Below are positions 29,595 through 50,032 of a DNA stretch of 64,000 nt, piece after piece. Each line of letters starts with the position of its first letter. The first letter of the stretch is position 1. Below the pieces are notes generated by a model. That model made no database searches. It saw nothing but the letters and a program-made list of their open reading frames with translations, and had not been told where the DNA came from. The stretch covers positions 4,464,001 to 4,528,000 of the forward strand of contig NZ_CP015772.1 in assembly GCF_001654455.1 (NCBI RefSeq), given 5' to 3'. The translations under genes and the position numbers were made by a program. Origin of the DNA: Niabella ginsenosidivorans (GTDB lineage Bacteria; Bacteroidota; Bacteroidia; Chitinophagales; Chitinophagaceae).

Positions 29595-30002
29595 ATGCTT
29601 ACAAAAAAATCACAATATGCCTTTAAGGCGCTGACCTACCTGGCTAACAAGCAGGAGAGCGGCCCTGTGCTGATTTCTGAAATAGCCAAAAAGAAAAAGA
29701 TCCCGCTGAAATTCCTGGAAAATATCCTGCTGGAATTAAGAAAAGCAGGGATACTGGAAAGCAAAAAGGGAAAAGGAGGCGGTTATTTTTTTAAGAAAGA
29801 CCCCGCCCAGGTACAAATGGCCACTATTATCCGTTTAATAGATGGCCCCATCTCCATGCTGCCCTGCGTAAGCCTGTACTTTTATGAACGCTGCAAAAAC
29901 TGCGATGAAAAGCGCTGCGGCCTGCATGATATAATGAAAGAAGTAAGAGATGCTACCCTTAAGATACTGGAAAACCGGACTTTAAAAGACCTGCAGGATT
30001 AA
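29595..30002 (+). CDS. Rrf2-family regulator with four-Cys motif
   Basis: The 135-residue winged-helix protein starts LTKKSQYAFKALTYLA, the usual Rrf2 opening, with the recognition part around LLELRKAGILESKKGKGGGY. Residues C91, C100, C103 and C108 (spacing 8, 2, 4) plus H111 form a cluster like that which holds Fe-S or Zn in IscR-type members. It is encoded 410 bases before the sulfur assimilation genes, and dyads of Rrf2-operator size lie in front of several of them. I infer that it controls sulfur assimilation, like CymR or IscR-type proteins elsewhere. Confidence 0.88.
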   Translation: MLTKKSQYAFKALTYLANKQESGPVLISEIAKKKKIPLKFLENILLELRKAGILESKKGKGGGYFFKKDPAQVQMATIIRLIDGPISMLPCVSLYFYERCKNCDEKRCGLHDIMKEVRDATLKILENRTLKDLQD

Positions 30003-30339: not shown

Positions 30340-30380
30340 CACTCTATTAGTCTACCTGATTGGTAGGTTTATTAAGAGTG
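30340..30380. promoter_or_regulatory. Candidate Rrf2 operator, site A
   Basis: A 41-base inverted repeat has outer arms CACTCT/AGAGTG and inner arms TCTACC/GGTAGG around TGATT. The left part reads ATTAGTCTACC, close to the arms of the sites at 34270 and 41818. The peroxiredoxin ATG is 32 bases downstream. Confidence 0.55.
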
Positions 30381-31137: not shown

Positions 31138-31833
31138 GTGTTTACAGACGAACAAATACAAGAGATAGAAAATGCTTCACTGCCGGATGCGTTGAAATTA
31201 GTGGCAGAACAGTACCCGGATGAAACCGTGTTCTCCACCTCCCTGGGTCAGGAAGACCAGGTATTAACAGAGGTCATTGCCACTCATAAGCTCCCGGTAA
31301 AGATCTTTACCTTAGATACCGGCCGCTTGTTCTATGAGCATTATGAACTGCTGGAAAGAACAAATGCCCGCTACAAAACCAATATACAGGTTTATTTTCC
31401 CGAAGCGGCGGATGTGGAAGCCTACGTAGCAGCAAAAGGCATTAACGGATTTTACGAATCAGTAGAGAACCGGAAGGAATGCTGCTTCATCAGGAAGGTG
31501 AAACCCCTCAACCGCGCACTGGAAGGTGCAAAGGTCTGGATCACCGGCTTACGCAGTGAGCAGTCGGAGAACCGGAAAGACATGAAAATGATCGAGTGGG
31601 ATGACGACCGCAAGCTCTATAAGTTCAACCCGTTGATCCACTGGAGTTATGATGAAATGACAGGTTATATACAACAAAAAAACATACCCTATAACCCGCT
31701 GCACGACAAAGGGTTCATCAGCATTGGCTGTGCGCCCTGTACCAGGGCCATTGAGCCCGGTGAGAATCCCAGGGCCGGAAGATGGTGGTGGGAAATCTCT
31801 CACAAAGAATGTGGACTTCATGTTCACCAATAG
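31138..31833 (+). CDS. cysH: Adenylyl-sulfate (APS) reductase CysH
   Basis: The 231-residue enzyme starts at GTG. It reduces APS to sulfite with thioredoxin or glutathione. It has C115-C116 (KECCFIRK) and C198-x2-C201 (GCAPC), the four ligands of the [4Fe-4S] cluster that marks APS-type rather than PAPS-type reductases, and the catalytic C225 in KECGLH near the C-terminus. STSLGQED is the PP-loop-like nucleotide site. That the enzyme is of APS type agrees with the absence of an APS kinase gene (cysC) from the island. Confidence 0.95.
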   Translation: MFTDEQIQEIENASLPDALKLVAEQYPDETVFSTSLGQEDQVLTEVIATHKLPVKIFTLDTGRLFYEHYELLERTNARYKTNIQVYFPEAADVEAYVAAKGINGFYESVENRKECCFIRKVKPLNRALEGAKVWITGLRSEQSENRKDMKMIEWDDDRKLYKFNPLIHWSYDEMTGYIQQKNIPYNPLHDKGFISIGCAPCTRAIEPGENPRAGRWWWEISHKECGLHVHQ

Positions 31834-39524: not shown

Positions 39525-41099
39525 ATGAAAGAGCAACAAGCTATAGCCGGCACCAATGCTTCAAAAGATGTGAACCCGTTGTTTCCCGTTTTTCTGAAGC
39601 TGGAACAATTACGGCTATTGATCATCGGTGGCGGAAAAGTAGCCCTGGAAAAGCTGGAAGCTGTTTTGGGCAATGCACCGGGAACCTCCGTTACGCTTGT
39701 GGCAAAAGAAGTGGCACAGGACATTAAAACACTGGCATCAGCATACGCCGGCCTCCATATTGAAGAAAGAGGCTATGTTGCTGATGATATCCGTAACGCT
39801 GATCTGGTCATTGCAGCCGTGAACAATATAGCAACGGCCCAGGAAATAAGAGCCGTTGCTCTAAAAGAAAAAAAGCTGATCAATGTAGCGGATAAACCGG
39901 AATTATGCGATTTTTATCTGGGATCGATCGTAAAAAAAGGGCATCTGAAAATTGCCATTTCTACCAACGGTAAATCACCCACCATAGCAAAGCGCCTGCG
40001 CGAAACACTCAGCGCATCCATACCGGAAGAAATGGATGACCTGCTGAATAATATGCAGCACATCCGCAACCAGCTAACGGGAAGCTTTGACCAAAAAGTA
40101 AAAGTGCTGAACCAGATCACCAAAGAACTCGCGGTAAAAAGTGCTGACAGCAATGCTGCATTGCATCTGCAAACCCGGCCGGAAAATGAAATGATGGAAA
40201 GCTCCGTTTTAGTAGCCAGTGCAACAAGACGTAGCAAGCCTTACTTAATAGGCATTGGATTGTTCCTTATCATTGCCTTTGCCATATATATTATTTATGC
40301 TTTCGGGCTATCAGGAGATATTCTTCATTTCCTGAACAAAGATCATCACCTGTTCTACTGGATGCTGCTGATAGGCTTTCTGGCAGAGATCGTAGCAGGA
40401 TCTATGGGAATGGGCTATGGTGTTATCTGCACCTCAATACTGCTGATGCTGAACGTGGCGCCTGCCGTGGTAAGTGCCAGTATCCATTCAGCAGAGTCCT
40501 TTACTACTGCTGCAGGAAGCATCAGTCATTTCAAATTAGGGAACGTTAATAAAAAGCTCACAAAAGCACTGGCCATCCCGGCCATTATTGGTGCCATTAT
40601 CGGTGCTATCTCTCTTTCTTATCTTGGAGAAAAGGATGCCAAACTGCTGAAACCTTTTATTGGTGCTTACACCTTATACCTGGGAGTACGCATATTAATG
40701 AACGTCTTTAAGAAAAAGAACGTAAAGATCAAACCAAAATCCACCCGGTTAACCCCGTTAGGGCTTATTGGCGGCTTTATTGATTCCTTTGGCGGCGGGG
40801 GCTGGGGACCGTTGGTTACCGGTACACTGATTAAGAACGGGCGCACTCCCCGTTATGTGATCGGAAGCTCTACTGTTGCCAAATTCATTCTTACCCTTAC
40901 AAGCGCTATTACTTTTGTATTTACCCTGGGCGTTCAGCACTGGAATATTGTATTGGGACTGCTGATAGGCGGGATTGTTACAGCGCCTTTTTCGGCCATG
41001 CTTACCTCTAAATTACCGGCAAAAAAGATGTTTGTAGTAGTAGGAGCGCTGGTCATTATTATGAGCCTTGTTACCATTTACAAAGCACTGTTTTTATAA
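39525..41099 (+). CDS. Siroheme-synthase domain fused to TauE/SafE permease
   Basis: The 524-residue fusion has at its N-terminus (about 17-200) a CysG-N/Met8-like domain: LLIIGGGKVALEKLE is the NAD loop and INVADKPELCDFYLGS carries the Asp (D123) used for dehydrogenation and iron chelation. From about 238 to the end there are eight or so helices of a TauE/SafE (DUF81) permease, including GSMGMGYGVICTSILLMLN and GGFIDSFGGGGWGPLVTG. The first part should oxidise precorrin-2 and insert iron to give siroheme; the second should move sulfite, sulfate or an organosulfonate across the inner membrane. No other sulfate importer is in the island, so this may be the entry route; direction is not shown by sequence. 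Confidence 0.93.
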   Translation: MKEQQAIAGTNASKDVNPLFPVFLKLEQLRLLIIGGGKVALEKLEAVLGNAPGTSVTLVAKEVAQDIKTLASAYAGLHIEERGYVADDIRNADLVIAAVNNIATAQEIRAVALKEKKLINVADKPELCDFYLGSIVKKGHLKIAISTNGKSPTIAKRLRETLSASIPEEMDDLLNNMQHIRNQLTGSFDQKVKVLNQITKELAVKSADSNAALHLQTRPENEMMESSVLVASATRRSKPYLIGIGLFLIIAFAIYIIYAFGLSGDILHFLNKDHHLFYWMLLIGFLAEIVAGSMGMGYGVICTSILLMLNVAPAVVSASIHSAESFTTAAGSISHFKLGNVNKKLTKALAIPAIIGAIIGAISLSYLGEKDAKLLKPFIGAYTLYLGVRILMNVFKKKNVKIKPKSTRLTPLGLIGGFIDSFGGGGWGPLVTGTLIKNGRTPRYVIGSSTVAKFILTLTSAITFVFTLGVQHWNIVLGLLIGGIVTAPFSAMLTSKLPAKKMFVVVGALVIIMSLVTIYKALFL

Positions 41100-41817: not shown

Positions 41818-41850
41818 TTTATTATTCTACTTTTTTGGTAGACTAATAAA
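41818..41850. promoter_or_regulatory. Candidate Rrf2 operator, site C
   Basis: TTTATTATTCTAC (41818-41830) and GTAGACTAATAAA (41838-41850) are complementary at 12 of 13 positions around a 7-base centre. It overlaps the -33 box of the promoter for the leader and receptor. A further half-site, GTAGACTAA, lies at 42015-42023, just before the receptor ATG. Binding at site C would block RNA polymerase. Confidence 0.65.
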
Positions 41851-41864
41851 TTATACTATTTTTG
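41834..41864 (+). promoter_or_regulatory. Promoter of the leader peptide and receptor
   Basis: TTTG (41834-41837) and TATTTTTG (41857-41864) match both Bacteroidota boxes exactly, with a 19-base spacer. The predicted start near 41871 is 12 bases before the ATG of the leader frame, the short 5' end usual in this phylum. Confidence 0.7.
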
Positions 41865-41882
41865 CCGACTGAAAATATTCTT

Positions 41883-41975
41883 ATGCGTATTGATCGATCT
41901 CTGCATGTACCCGTTAAAGCAAACGGTATTAATCCCGAAATTGAATTCCGATGTTGCTGCTTTTCTTACCTGTAA
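41883..41975 (+). CDS. Candidate cysteine-sensing leader peptide
   Basis: A frame of 30 codons and a stop starts MRIDRSLHVPVKANGINPE and ends FRCCCFSYL. The three successive cysteine codons (TGT TGC TGC, 41952-41960) lie close to the stop. Its ATG is the first start codon after a strong promoter whose -33 box is covered by a sulfur-regulon dyad. The TonB receptor starts 64 bases after its stop. Cysteine is otherwise rare, so a run of three points to a translational sensor of cysteinyl-tRNA, as known for leader peptides of amino acid operons and for polycysteine upstream frames in mycobacterial sulfur genes. It is too short for usual gene finding. It could also be a functional microprotein. 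Confidence 0.6.
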   Translation: MRIDRSLHVPVKANGINPEIEFRCCCFSYL

Positions 41976-41992
41976 AAACAGTGTATTTTTTT
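41970..41992 (+). terminator. Possible attenuator at the leader end
   Basis: CTGT (41970-41973) and ACAG (41978-41981) can form a 4-bp stem over the leader stop codon, followed by TGTA and seven T (41986-41992). The stem is too short for a strong terminator, but a ribosome stalled at the Cys codons would cover it. Function is inference. Confidence 0.25.
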
Positions 41993-42039
41993 AAACATAT
42001 TCTCTATAAAATTAGTAGACTAAAAACCAGATAGATATA

Positions 42040-44613
42040 ATGAGACTTCAAATCGCCTCTTATAGGCTTATTCTTACAGGTACTGTATGGCTGCTTTCCC
42101 ACTCCTTAAGAGCGCAGCTGGCAGGACGTGTTATTAACGAGCAAAATGAAGGGATCCCCAATGCCAGTATTCAGGTAAAAGGAAAGGATATCGGAACTAC
42201 TGCTGACGATGCCGGCATCTTTACACTGGATAATATACCTAAAATACCCTTTACCATAACAGTAACCTCTGTTAATTATGACCCCAGGAATATTGTTGTA
42301 CGAACTACCCATGATTCACTGATCGTAAAGCTTTCAGTAACCTATCACCTGGATACGATTGTGGTTACCTCCCGCCGGCGGAACGAGCTGCTCCAGGAAG
42401 TGCCCATTGCTGTTTCCGTGATCGGCGGTGCTAAAATTGCTGAAGCAGGCGCCTTTAATGTAAACCGCATTAAGGAACTGGTGCCCTCTCTCCAATTATA
42501 TACTTCCAACCCCAGGAACACCGGTGTGAATATACGAGGCCTCGGTTCTCCCTTTGGGCTTACGAACGACGGGCTGGACCCCGGTGTGGGTTATTATATT
42601 GATGGCGTTTATTATGCCCGGCCCGCTGCGGCTGTTCTGGACTTTATTGATGTAGACCATATAGAAGTGCTCCGGGGGCCGCAGGGAACATTGTTCGGGA
42701 AGAACACAACTGCAGGTGCCATTAATATCATCTCCAGGAAACCCAGCTTTCATCCAGGAGGAACCATAGAAGCCAGCTTTGGTAATTACGGCTATATACA
42801 GGCCAAGGCCTCCATTACAGGACCGCTTTCCAAACGGATTGCAGGAAGATTGTCCTTCTCCGGTACCCAGCGGGACGGGTTAATTTATAATACCCGTACC
42901 CAGCAGCATGTAAATGATATCAATAACCTGGGGTTCCGGGCTCAGCTGCTGTACAATGTTTCAGACAACACCGCTATCACCCTGAGCGGGGATGTGTCTT
43001 CCCAGAAACCCGTTGGATATGCCCAGGTCATTGCCGGCATTGTTAAAACAGAAAGGCCCGATTACCGGCAATTTGATGCCATCATTGCCGATCTGAATTA
43101 TAAACTGCCTTCCTTAAACGCATTTGACCGGGTTATAGACCATGATACTCCGTGGAAATCGGACAATGAATTGGGCGGCGCATCGCTGAATATTGACAGC
43201 AAGATAGGTCCGGGCACATTCACTTCAACCACTGCCTGGCGGTATTGGAACTGGAATCCTTCCAATGACCGCGACTTTACAGGGCTGGAAGCGCTTTCCA
43301 AATCACAGAATCCATCTGAACATAAAAGCTTTTCACAGGAATTCCGGTACGCAGGTGATATTAACGACCGCCTCAGTGGTGTAGTAGGCCTGTTCTTTAT
43401 TGACCAGGATGTGAAAACGCATGGAACAGAAGAATCCGGCAAAGATCAGTGGCGCTTTGCACAAAGTTCTACAAGCGAGCTGTGGAAAACTCCGGGCCTG
43501 CTTGACGGGTATGGGATCAAAACCGAATCCTCTATAAAATCGTTAAGCGCAGCAGCATTCGCTAATGTAGACTGGGAGTTTGTGGACCATTTCCATTTTT
43601 TACCCGGTATTCGTCTGAACTATGATGAAAAAAGCGCTGTTTACGACCGGAAAGCCTATGGTGGCCTGCAAACAGATGATCCGGATCTGCTTGCATTAAA
43701 AAATGCTGTCTATTCAAGCCAGTTCTATGAATCCAGCGCAGCAGAGCGTAATTTTACTTATCAGCTTACCCTGGCATACAAACCTTCCAGGCGTATTAAT
43801 TCTTTTGCCACTTATTCCACCAGCTTTAAGCCCGTAGGGGTAAATGTGGCCGGTATTCCAACCGTTTCCGGGAAACCAGCTATTGACCTGGCTGTAATAC
43901 GCCCGGAATATACCAAACATGAGGAAGTAGGAATTAAGACCAACCCGACCAACGACCTTACATTAAATTTAACCTTCCATAATTCTGACATCAGGGATTA
44001 CCAGACCAACGTTCAAAGCCCGGAACTGGGAGTAAACCGCGGGTACATTGCCAATGCTGATAAAGTGAATGTTAAAGGCGTTGAATTTGACGGAAGCTTT
44101 CGTGCCAACACCCATTTTAATTTTAACGGGTCTTTTGCATATACAGATGGTAAATATGTGAAGTTTACCAATGCGCCCCTGCCTTTAGAAGAAACCGGCC
44201 ATACCGAAAATGGCGTTCAGGTCGCATTTAAAGACATCTCCGGCAGTCAATTGCCGGGCATTTCCAAATGGGCCGGTTCATTAGGAGGTGAATACAGCAC
44301 AGCAGCAGCGCTTTTTGGCAGACCCGGTCAGTTCTTTATTGCGCTTGACGGTTTCTATCGCTCTTCTTTTTCCTCAAGCCCCACTCCTTCCAGATATTTA
44401 AATATAGATGGTTACACCCTGGTTAATGGCCGGTTGGGCTTCCGGGCGCAGAAAGGACTGACCGCTTATATATGGAGCCGCAATATCCTGAACAAAGATT
44501 ATTACGAGCAACTGCTGGTAGCCGGAGGCAATTCCGGTCAGTATGCCGCTGTGCTGGGTGATCAGCGAACATATGGCATAACACTCAGCTATACCTTCAA
44601 CAGCCATAATTAG
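42040..44613 (+). CDS. TonB-dependent receptor, likely for organosulfur compounds
   Basis: The 857-residue outer-membrane transporter has a signal peptide (to about LRAQ), a carboxypeptidase-like regulatory domain (AGRVINEQNEGIPNASIQVKG, about 25-105), a plug domain (RRRNELLQEVPIAVSVIGG to FGKNTTAGAINIISRKPSF) and a 22-strand beta-barrel ending in a C-terminal aromatic/hydrophobic strand (YGITLSYTFN). The plug has GLGSPFGLTNDGLDPGVGYY and YARPAAAVLDF, features of the receptor branch that includes SftP of sulfate-ester users. With the sulfur-type operator, leader peptide and neighbourhood, I infer uptake of a sulfate ester, sulfonate or other sulfur compound. Iron-siderophore uptake is the main alternative. 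Confidence 0.9.
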   Translation: MRLQIASYRLILTGTVWLLSHSLRAQLAGRVINEQNEGIPNASIQVKGKDIGTTADDAGIFTLDNIPKIPFTITVTSVNYDPRNIVVRTTHDSLIVKLSVTYHLDTIVVTSRRRNELLQEVPIAVSVIGGAKIAEAGAFNVNRIKELVPSLQLYTSNPRNTGVNIRGLGSPFGLTNDGLDPGVGYYIDGVYYARPAAAVLDFIDVDHIEVLRGPQGTLFGKNTTAGAINIISRKPSFHPGGTIEASFGNYGYIQAKASITGPLSKRIAGRLSFSGTQRDGLIYNTRTQQHVNDINNLGFRAQLLYNVSDNTAITLSGDVSSQKPVGYAQVIAGIVKTERPDYRQFDAIIADLNYKLPSLNAFDRVIDHDTPWKSDNELGGASLNIDSKIGPGTFTSTTAWRYWNWNPSNDRDFTGLEALSKSQNPSEHKSFSQEFRYAGDINDRLSGVVGLFFIDQDVKTHGTEESGKDQWRFAQSSTSELWKTPGLLDGYGIKTESSIKSLSAAAFANVDWEFVDHFHFLPGIRLNYDEKSAVYDRKAYGGLQTDDPDLLALKNAVYSSQFYESSAAERNFTYQLTLAYKPSRRINSFATYSTSFKPVGVNVAGIPTVSGKPAIDLAVIRPEYTKHEEVGIKTNPTNDLTLNLTFHNSDIRDYQTNVQSPELGVNRGYIANADKVNVKGVEFDGSFRANTHFNFNGSFAYTDGKYVKFTNAPLPLEETGHTENGVQVAFKDISGSQLPGISKWAGSLGGEYSTAAALFGRPGQFFIALDGFYRSSFSSSPTPSRYLNIDGYTLVNGRLGFRAQKGLTAYIWSRNILNKDYYEQLLVAGGNSGQYAAVLGDQRTYGITLSYTFNSHN

Positions 44614-48967: not shown

Positions 48968-50032
48968 TTATTCCTGCCTGGCCAGCTTTTCTGAGTTTTC
49001 TGCAAATTGCAACTGATCAATAAACTCCTGTATATCCCCGTTCATAAAGGCGTCCAGGTTATAAGATGTCAAATTGATGCGGTGGTCCGTAACCCTTCCC
49101 TGGGGATAATTGTAGGTTCGGATCTTTGCACTCCGGTCGCCTGAGCTTACCAGGCTTTTGCGGTGACGGGAAATTTCTTCCTCCTGTTTGCGCACCTGCT
49201 CTTCATACAGCTTTGTACGCAACATCTGCATCGCTTTTTCCCGGTTGCCCAGCTGGGTGCGTTCTGTCTGGCAAATGACCACGGTGCCCGTTGGAATATG
49301 TGTCAGCATTACCTTGGTTTCCACTTTGTTTACGTTCTGCCCTCCGGCACCACCGCTTCGCGCGGTTTCCATTTTCACATCACTTTCCCGCAGCTCAAAA
49401 TCAATTTCATCGGCTTCCGGCATTACCGCAACAGTTGCGGCAGAGGTATGCACACGGCCCTGCGTTTCCGTATCCGGCACCCGCTGTACCCGGTGCACAC
49501 CACTTTCAAATTTCAGGGTACCATATACATCATCGCCGGTTACCTCTAACTGCACCTCCTTATAACCGCCTACAGTTCCCTCACTTTCGCTAAGCACGGC
49601 TGTTTTAAAACCATGCCGTTCACAGTATTTTATATACATGCGCAGCAGGTCGCCGGCAAACAGGCTTGCCTCATCACCACCGGTGCCTGCACGGATTTCC
49701 ATAATCACATTCTTTTCATCCTGCGGGTCTTTGGGAATCAGCAACTGGCGGATATGTGCTTCTATTTTTTCTTTCTGTTCTTCCAGGCCGTCCAGCTCTT
49801 CCTTGGCCAGCTCACGCAATTCCTCATCATCCCCGTTCAGCGCTTCTTTATTAAATTCCAAATCATCCAGCAATCTTTTGTAATCGTTATAGGCATTAAC
49901 AATCTTTTCAAGACTACGGTATTCTTTACTGGTTGCAGCAAATTTTTTATTATCACCCACGATCTCCGGGTTGGTCAATGCCACTGCCAGCTGGTCATAT
50001 TTGGCTTTTATAGCCTCCAATTTATCTAACAT
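48968..50032 (-). CDS. prfA: Peptide chain release factor 1
   Basis: The 354-residue class I release factor has [14 protein letters not shown] with the GGQ motif that triggers peptide release. The tripeptide that reads stop codons, usually PAT in RF1, is PDT here ([20 protein letters not shown]). The RF1-type context on both sides leaves the assignment clear: it reads UAA and UAG. Normal length. It converges with the barrel gene and has its own -7 box upstream. Confidence 0.95.

Follow-up and report, generated by a model that had tools for sequence, protein, structure and literature searches.

The stretch of DNA considered here, referred to as the window, comprises 64,000 nucleotides (nt) of Niabella ginsenosidivorans (contig NZ_CP015772.1, positions 4,464,001 to 4,528,000), and the element in question is a short open reading frame (ORF) situated, as read from the sequence, between a Bacteroidota-type promoter and the gene for a TonB-dependent receptor. 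On the plus strand, a −33 box (TTTG, 41834–41837) is followed 19 nt later by a −7 box (TATTTTTG, 41857–41864), which together we take to be the promoter motif of Bacteroidota. The ORF, called the leader below, occupies 41883–41975, from an ATG at 41883 to a TAA at 41973–41975, and has 30 codons (MRIDRSLHVPVKANGINPEIEFRCCCFSYL, ending FRCCCFSYL); three adjacent cysteine (Cys) codons, TGT TGC TGC, lie at 41952–41960 with CGA directly before them (41949–41951). A preliminary description of this DNA had reported such a frame between promoter and receptor, and direct reading of the coordinates bears it out. The leader stop is separated by 64 nt from the ATG of the receptor (42040–44613, 857 amino acids; PF00593, PF07715, PF13715), in which Pfam recognises CarboxypepD_reg-like, plug and barrel domains. 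An operator-like dyad (dyad 1, TTATTCTAC-N7-GTAGACTAA, 41822–41846) matches the dyad core exactly and encloses the −33 box, while a second operator-like dyad (dyad 2, ATTCTCTATAAAATTAGTAGACTAA, 41999–42023) lies in the transcribed part. Exactly 6 nt separate a T7 tract (41986–41992) from dyad 2, and the tract is itself preceded by a weak stem-loop over the final leader codons and stop (41967–41985), all of these on the plus strand.

A run of Cys codons by itself proves little, since TGY triplets stand three in a row at 1621 sites of this genome. Judged from shuffles (0.26 in 78 regions), about 0.3% of upstream regions 400 nt long should contain a frame with an ATG start, 10–60 codons and at least three Cys among the last eight. 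Receptor orthologs were found in 12 of the 17 genomes of the genus, and a Cys-rich short frame lies between promoter region and receptor in all 11 with a readable upstream region, our own included. Beginning with that of the window, the leaders end in FRCCCFSYL, YCCPAAGSRCCC, MCCNPAADARCCD, HCCPAADARCCC, ACCRPATGCRCCY (from a GTG start), RCIPAAGFRCCR, SCCCSSCRKAWYYFN, TCCCRAFPGVSCCCG, EWRCCMCS, YCSCCCNTYCSCGSA and SCCCSAFSGKSCCCC; outside close relatives the peptides are barely alike, the Cys cluster being kept and not the peptide. It was on the conservation of frame and Cys codons among relatives that the preliminary description had staked its claim, and the claim survives in this form. A family-wide search with the window's own peptide as query gave no convincing homolog outside its own genome (best E 0.021), and most loci found look like chance. 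Rfam returned four matches, all well below family thresholds, and five leader peptides matched nothing in NCBIfam.

Counts were made under a strict rule (ATG start, 10–60 codons, at least two Cys in the last eight codons, within 400 nt upstream), which nine of the 11 genus leaders pass, and under a looser one (C.?C anywhere, 8–60 codons, 330 nt). The wider set consisted of the best 80 of 297 named receptor homologs found, 78 of which were counted (L116 and L128 are without upstream DNA); these loci are related by phylogeny and include the duplicates L075/L037 and L076/L035, and counts over them are not independent events. The strict rule finds a leader in 54 of the 78, compared with 4.98 in shuffled sequences (maximum 10) and 5/78 on the reverse strand; 2 kb further upstream it finds 2/63, with 4/63 on the reverse strand of those regions. 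At least three Cys near the stop occur in 34/78 (shuffles 0.26, maximum 2), and the looser rule gives 60/78 (shuffles 5.1, maximum 12). Upstream of a control gene (48968–50032 in the window), presumably that of release factor 1, Cys leaders number 0/30. Carriers among the homologs include Chitinophagaceae, Mucilaginibacter and Flavobacterium; by groups that we assigned from record labels, strict-rule leaders are present in 13/14 Flavobacterium and flavobacterial metagenome-assembled genomes, 20/21 Sphingobacteriaceae-type, 2/10 Cytophagales-type and 19/33 remaining loci, mostly Chitinophagaceae. One Chitinophagaceae locus has a Cys/Met-metabolism pyridoxal-phosphate enzyme (L087:6912–8081) 1.4 kb downstream of the receptor.

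Enrichment in the codons of one amino acid, as in amino-acid attenuators, is seen here as Cys doublets: in the last eight codons they occur in 42 of the 78 upstream regions against 1.1 expected, compared with 13 against 0.5 for Met, 9 against 1.8 for Ala, 13 against 7.0 for Lys and 9 against 4.4 for Phe, the remaining residues lying near or below expectation. Within the eight codons that the rule inspects, Cys frequency peaks in the final four, as it should if it is the residues close to the stop that count. The Cys codons are mixed (TGT 136, TGC 60). In 25 of 63 leader rows the residue ahead of the Cys cluster is Arg, encoded by CGA in 23 of these; across 17 window genes, CGA makes up 13 of 355 Arg codons. 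A constraint at the nucleotide level on CGATGT is suggested at 41949 and in relatives; a second ORF from its out-of-frame ATG was considered and rejected, its end position not being fixed across 24 rows.

In Flavobacterium, among 63 regions (L280, L310 and L311 excluded), a leader is found in 60 (54 distinct) by a rule that itself requires Cys near the end; the other three are L256 (MMCMWW), L294 (MMCMS) and L146, in which the start is mislocated. These leaders mostly end in (M)MCMC with or without W (L148–L154, L252–L309), and in the 54 distinct ones the distance from stop to receptor ATG is 45–59 nt. The combination of Met and Cys suggests that both sulfur amino acids are sensed in this genus. 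At locus L148 a protein 46% identical to the Rrf2-family regulator of the window is encoded directly upstream of leader and receptor. The excluded L310, also of the Flavobacterium group, has a leader with seven consecutive Cys codons before a receptor homolog. The end of the frame upstream of it resembles that of a sulfite reductase.

The dyad links the receptor to other sulfur genes. Its 13-base core occurs exactly at dyad 1, at 30347–30366 and at two further places in the genome, and with at most one mismatch at 11 places. Three mismatches give no excess in the window (7 matches, 8.65 expected), nor do two in the genome (45 matches, fewer than the 116 of a reversed control pattern); a longer dyad (16 fixed bases, two mismatches) has 10 sites on one strand of the genome against 1 for the control. 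Only the near-exact core sites and the longer dyad stand out above control. Cys frames follow several of them: LRCCCCCGS after the dyad at 337359 and FRCCPA after that at 2607805, each with SusC/SusD behind; DRCCRCFF after 4922906 (minus strand), followed by a 450-amino-acid frame that looks like the start of a SusC, by SusD and by a sulfatase; AGMCCCC after 1484579 (minus strand), whose head has no ATG and would need a TTG start, before a PhyH dioxygenase; HRFCCC after 1480346, before a TauE/NAD-binding fusion that is a paralog of the siroheme/TauE gene of the window, the leader and the gene being about 550 nt apart, a stretch that contains two more dyads; and FRCWQC after 116956 (two mismatches), before a TonB receptor. 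After the dyads at 30347 and 4148441 no Cys leader was seen; the one at 582656 is followed by just a weak frame. The TauE fusion gene at about 1480346–1482363 (L158), the second in the genome, is preceded by three dyads and by a leader with CCC. The preliminary description had held that the dyad overlaps the −33 box and is common to sulfur genes, which agrees with the exact core match and with the near-exact copies before Cys leaders.

Within the window, the copy at 30347–30371 (minus strand) lies upstream of peroxiredoxin and cysH genes and adjoins the gene of an Rrf2-family regulator (29595–30002, plus strand; PF02082, E=2.5e-35), which is a candidate binder of the dyad; Rrf2 genes are found beside dyad-associated genes, and the solved relatives of this protein by sequence include CymR (2y75). 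The cysH-type reductase of 3′-phosphoadenosine 5′-phosphosulfate or adenosine 5′-phosphosulfate is encoded at 31138–31833 (plus strand; PF01507, E=7.6e-46), other genes, to judge by their sequences presumably of sulfate assimilation, lie between about 31917 and 39504, and a siroheme synthase N-domain fused to a TauE sulfite exporter follows at 39525–41099 (plus strand), upstream of the leader.

The longer dyad is present in 33 of 60 Chitinophagaceae genomes; summing the forward counts gives about 133 sites, whereas the reversed pattern has about 63. In a test of 131 dyad directions, covering 60 regions and leaving out sites in G064, G066, G019 and G022 and unlisted ones, 29 directions have a leader (27 distinct, L203 and L251 counting twice), compared with about 7.8 expected from shuffles; L239 among them is a receptor locus of the main set (L085), and L244, L248 and L251 recur in the cysH set described below. 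The genes behind these leaders include cysH in three genomes and six whose N-terminal domain is the one typical of SusC-type receptors, while those at L212 and L220 have a start resembling our own PhyH protein and no Pfam match. At L226 and L242 a single dyad is flanked on each side by a Cys leader, in opposite directions. By eye, L196 (minus strand) and L129 have a hairpin directly before T-run and dyad, without a Cys leader, a layout that is perhaps a variant of the ordinary terminator.

Cys leaders also occur upstream of cysH. Among 70 of 75 matches in Chitinophagaceae (G035, G026, G023, G103 and G101 excluded), 35 have a frame with at least two Cys near the stop (shuffles 6.8, maximum 12) and 26 have at least three (shuffles 0.55, maximum 3), with tails such as MRCCCCCSCC, YMCCCCCCR and DACCCCCNSSCCMQ. 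For spacer analyses 30 of the 35 were kept; five whose frame ends at least 190 nt before the gene (L314, L315, L341, L367 and L378) were dropped by eye and are counted among 40 other cysH upstreams. At L342 and L343 the gene start is off by one base, leaving the leaders valid and the spacer lengths not. Genes that make or import the nutrient do stand behind the leaders, namely cysH, the sulfatase behind SusD and the siroheme/TauE gene.

Two features of the spacer between leader and gene bear on how the signal may be read out. The first is a skew of C over G after the stop, 0.41 for cysH (28 loci with a spacer of at least 30 nt, all positive) and 0.44 for the receptors (63 loci, 90% positive), compared with 0.06 in 316 other intergenic regions, 0.01 in the 40 other cysH upstreams and 0.12 in the 30 control-gene upstreams; in none of 5000 resamplings did control regions reach the skew of either leader set. 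By group it is 0.78 in Flavobacterium, a value that derives from spacers with about 5 C and 0.3 G each, and 0.51 in the Sphingobacteriaceae type. The Rho RNA-binding domain is present in the genome. The second feature is dyad 2, which at up to five mismatches is found between leader and receptor in 23 of 30 loci of the group of Chitinophagaceae and others, compared with 0/20 in Sphingobacteriaceae and 0/13 in Flavobacterium groups. At 19 of 24 sites (17 distinct loci) in the Chitinophagaceae receptor loci, exactly 6 nt of variable sequence separate the end of a T-run from dyad 2; the same spacing occurs at 2 of 32 promoter dyads and, elsewhere, at 11 of 180 oriented dyads, with promoter dyads among them. 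As the T-run accompanies the transcribed dyad and mostly not the promoter dyad, it is read as a possible repressor-dependent stop signal. Two hairpin candidates were tried and set aside: an intrinsic terminator, for which a first scan gave 4/63 loci at −6 kcal/mol or below (0.4 expected) and a focused one on the 17 T-run loci gave 1 at −5 kcal/mol or below (2.9 expected), and a Cys-arm hairpin, strongly complementary in five related Flavobacterium loci, with no covariation and weak overall.

Taken together, these observations make it probable that the frame encodes a leader peptide for sensing cysteine, a ribosome-mediated attenuator being superimposed here on a regulon with an Rrf2-type repressor. 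The conservation and position of the Cys cluster, the company of genes, the dyads, the skew and the fixed spacing are matters of sequence; translation of the leader, the stall, the sign of control, the identity of the regulator and the read-out are predicted from them. RNA polymerase would start at the dyad-overlapped promoter, where the Rrf2-type repressor would provide the first layer of control, and a ribosome would follow on the leader. If charged tRNA-Cys were scarce, the ribosome would halt on the Cys codons shortly before the stop, stalling, we infer, on uncharged tRNA-Cys, and transcription or translation would proceed into the sulfur-scavenging gene; if cysteine were plentiful, it would finish and leave, and expression would be attenuated. 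Most relatives probably read the signal out through Rho, which would terminate transcription in the C-rich, G-poor spacer; in Chitinophagaceae receptor loci, including that of the window, the U-tract 6 nt ahead of the second operator may provide a further stop that depends on the repressor. Of the cysteine-supply leader put forward in the preliminary description, the Cys-codon leader conserved at a sulfur locus therefore stands, whereas the weak stem with its T7 tract does not hold as a conserved switch: in the window the stem reaches −3.8 kcal/mol against −1.0 in shuffles, yet across 17 distinct leader loci the stems before the T-run average no better than shuffles (−2.0 versus −2.3 kcal/mol).

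In mycobacteria, Canestrari et al. reportedly described in 2020 a leaderless polycysteine small ORF as a cysteine-responsive attenuator. The leader of the window resembles it as a short upstream ORF with adjacent Cys codons. It probably differs in having a short 5′ untranslated region, to judge by the 18 nt between the −7 box and its ATG, and it belongs to another phylum and is tied to dyads beside Rrf2 genes, TonB receptors and SusC/D. Tandem Cys codons also occur in uORFC-8-2, an upstream ORF before cysS in Rhodobacterales, for which ribosome-mediated attenuation was proposed; in the portion of that paper available it comprises two stems with an intrinsic terminator and serves a single target gene, whereas the Bacteroidota leaders have no conserved terminator and several types of target gene (PMC8632094). 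The copper-responsive upstream ORF CruR (DUF2946) likewise precedes a receptor gene and is described, in the available part of the report, as having a Rho-dependent read-out with a C>G bubble (PMC9426467). The Rrf2 protein beside sulfur genes recalls regulators of the CymR/IscR type, with the dyad as putative operator. Leader-peptide attenuation has been proposed in Flavobacterium psychrophilum and Bacteroides thetaiotaomicron (PMC9723704, PMC7366714), where the parts available name amino-acid biosynthesis operons or unspecified small ORFs and no cysteine leaders; among the papers listed by searches of open-licence PubMed Central there was none on a Bacteroidota cysteine leader.

Several observations weigh against a cysteine attenuator of this form. 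Among the receptor homologs, 8 of 10 labelled Cytophagales or a family of it have no strict-rule leader; the cysH of the window has none, its 26 nearest orthologs (L312–L338, with itself) yield only two dubious matches, and 22 Flavobacteriales cysH upstreams yield one dubious leader. The ratio of nonsynonymous to synonymous substitution (dN/dS) in the N-terminus of Flavobacterium leaders is 0.72 over 217 pairs, which is weak proof of translation. Where a −7 box directly follows the dyad (22 directions) there are four leaders, within the range of shuffles (mean 1.5, maximum 4), compared with 25 in the remaining 109 (shuffle mean 6.3, maximum 13); at cysH loci the −7 box, judged by eye, often precedes the dyad, which would explain the lack of excess among the 22. 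As to the read-out, the stems before the T-run yield no conserved terminator/antiterminator pair, and pairing of the Cys arm with the spacer is without covariation, own pairs beating swapped ones in 26/54, 16/28 and 25/50. The skew is just 0.24 in the receptor group of Chitinophagaceae and others (80% of 30 positive), and with 7 C and 6 G the spacer of the window itself shows no enrichment in C. Before four cysH genes the spacer measures at most 36 nt, in one case 8 nt, which gives Rho little space.

The rival that fares best places the leader's action in translation, a stalled ribosome opening the receptor start region or handing ribosomes over to it, and we regard this as possible if unlikely. 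It would suit the narrow 45–59-nt gap of the Flavobacterium leaders, the gaps of 8–36 nt before four cysH genes, and the fact that in five Flavobacterium loci, all close relatives, the MCMC codons are complementary to a CAYATATAC shortly before the ATG of the receptor (z −3.5 to −6.4); that pairing is, however, without covariation in the genus (own beating swapped in 26/54, as above) and weak over the 63 receptor leaders (median z −0.33).

For the Chitinophagaceae loci we offer, tentatively and with more doubt than confidence, a hairpin-free terminator gated by the repressor, in which a U-tract exactly 6 nt ahead of a transcribed Rrf2 operator would destabilise a polymerase halted by the repressor and the leader ribosome would decide between push-through and release. 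Signals from the Rrf2 effector and from tRNA-Cys charging would, if this were true, meet at one spot on the transcript. A reading with the operator alone, in which Rrf2 bound to dyad 2 would stop polymerase at the U-tract while the leader is incidental, or only modulates through a trailing ribosome, appears unlikely. The T-run spacing (19/24 sites against 2/32 promoter dyads) speaks for it, as does the ability of trailing ribosomes to push polymerase forward, stated in the available portion of PMC10310618; but Sphingobacteriaceae and Flavobacterium have Cys leaders without dyad 2 and T-run (0/20, 0/13), the cysH leaders are without the T-run spacing, and a leader that exists without these features is unlikely to be incidental.

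Sensing of a metal (copper, zinc) or of redox state by the nascent Cys-rich peptide, in the manner of CruR, instead of cysteine supply, is in our judgement improbable. MMCMC tails such as those of Flavobacterium could in general bind Cu(I), and BfrG, the product of the gene behind CruR, is presumably a TonB receptor. The Cys spacing of the leaders is variable (CC, CCC and CMC occur, and as many as seven Cys stand together), their neighbours are cysH, siroheme/sulfite and sulfatase genes, and a Cys run one to four codons before the stop would, on general grounds, still be within the exit tunnel when translation ends. CruR uses nascent-chain Cys residues before bfrG, but in the part of the report available it is a DUF2946 protein that senses copper and has CXXC and RAPP motifs 45 residues apart (PMC9426467), motifs that the 30-codon leader of the window does not have. 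A chance frame in AT-rich intergenic DNA, although TGY runs are common in the genome and the family-wide peptide search gave at best E=0.021 outside it, has next to no probability and for the whole leader set is already refuted by the shuffle, reverse-strand, far-upstream and control-gene tests.

If the leader is indeed a cysteine attenuator, cysteine attenuation by polycysteine leaders would extend to Bacteroidota, in Chitinophagaceae, in Mucilaginibacter and its relatives and in Flavobacterium, and this would suggest that outer-membrane nutrient receptors and a SusC/D–sulfatase system are under the control of cysteine. The fixed spacing of T-run and operator raises the question of a transcription stop that needs no hairpin. 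Cys leader and dyad together would also give a sequence handle on the sulfur-scavenging systems among the TonB receptors that lack an assigned substrate.

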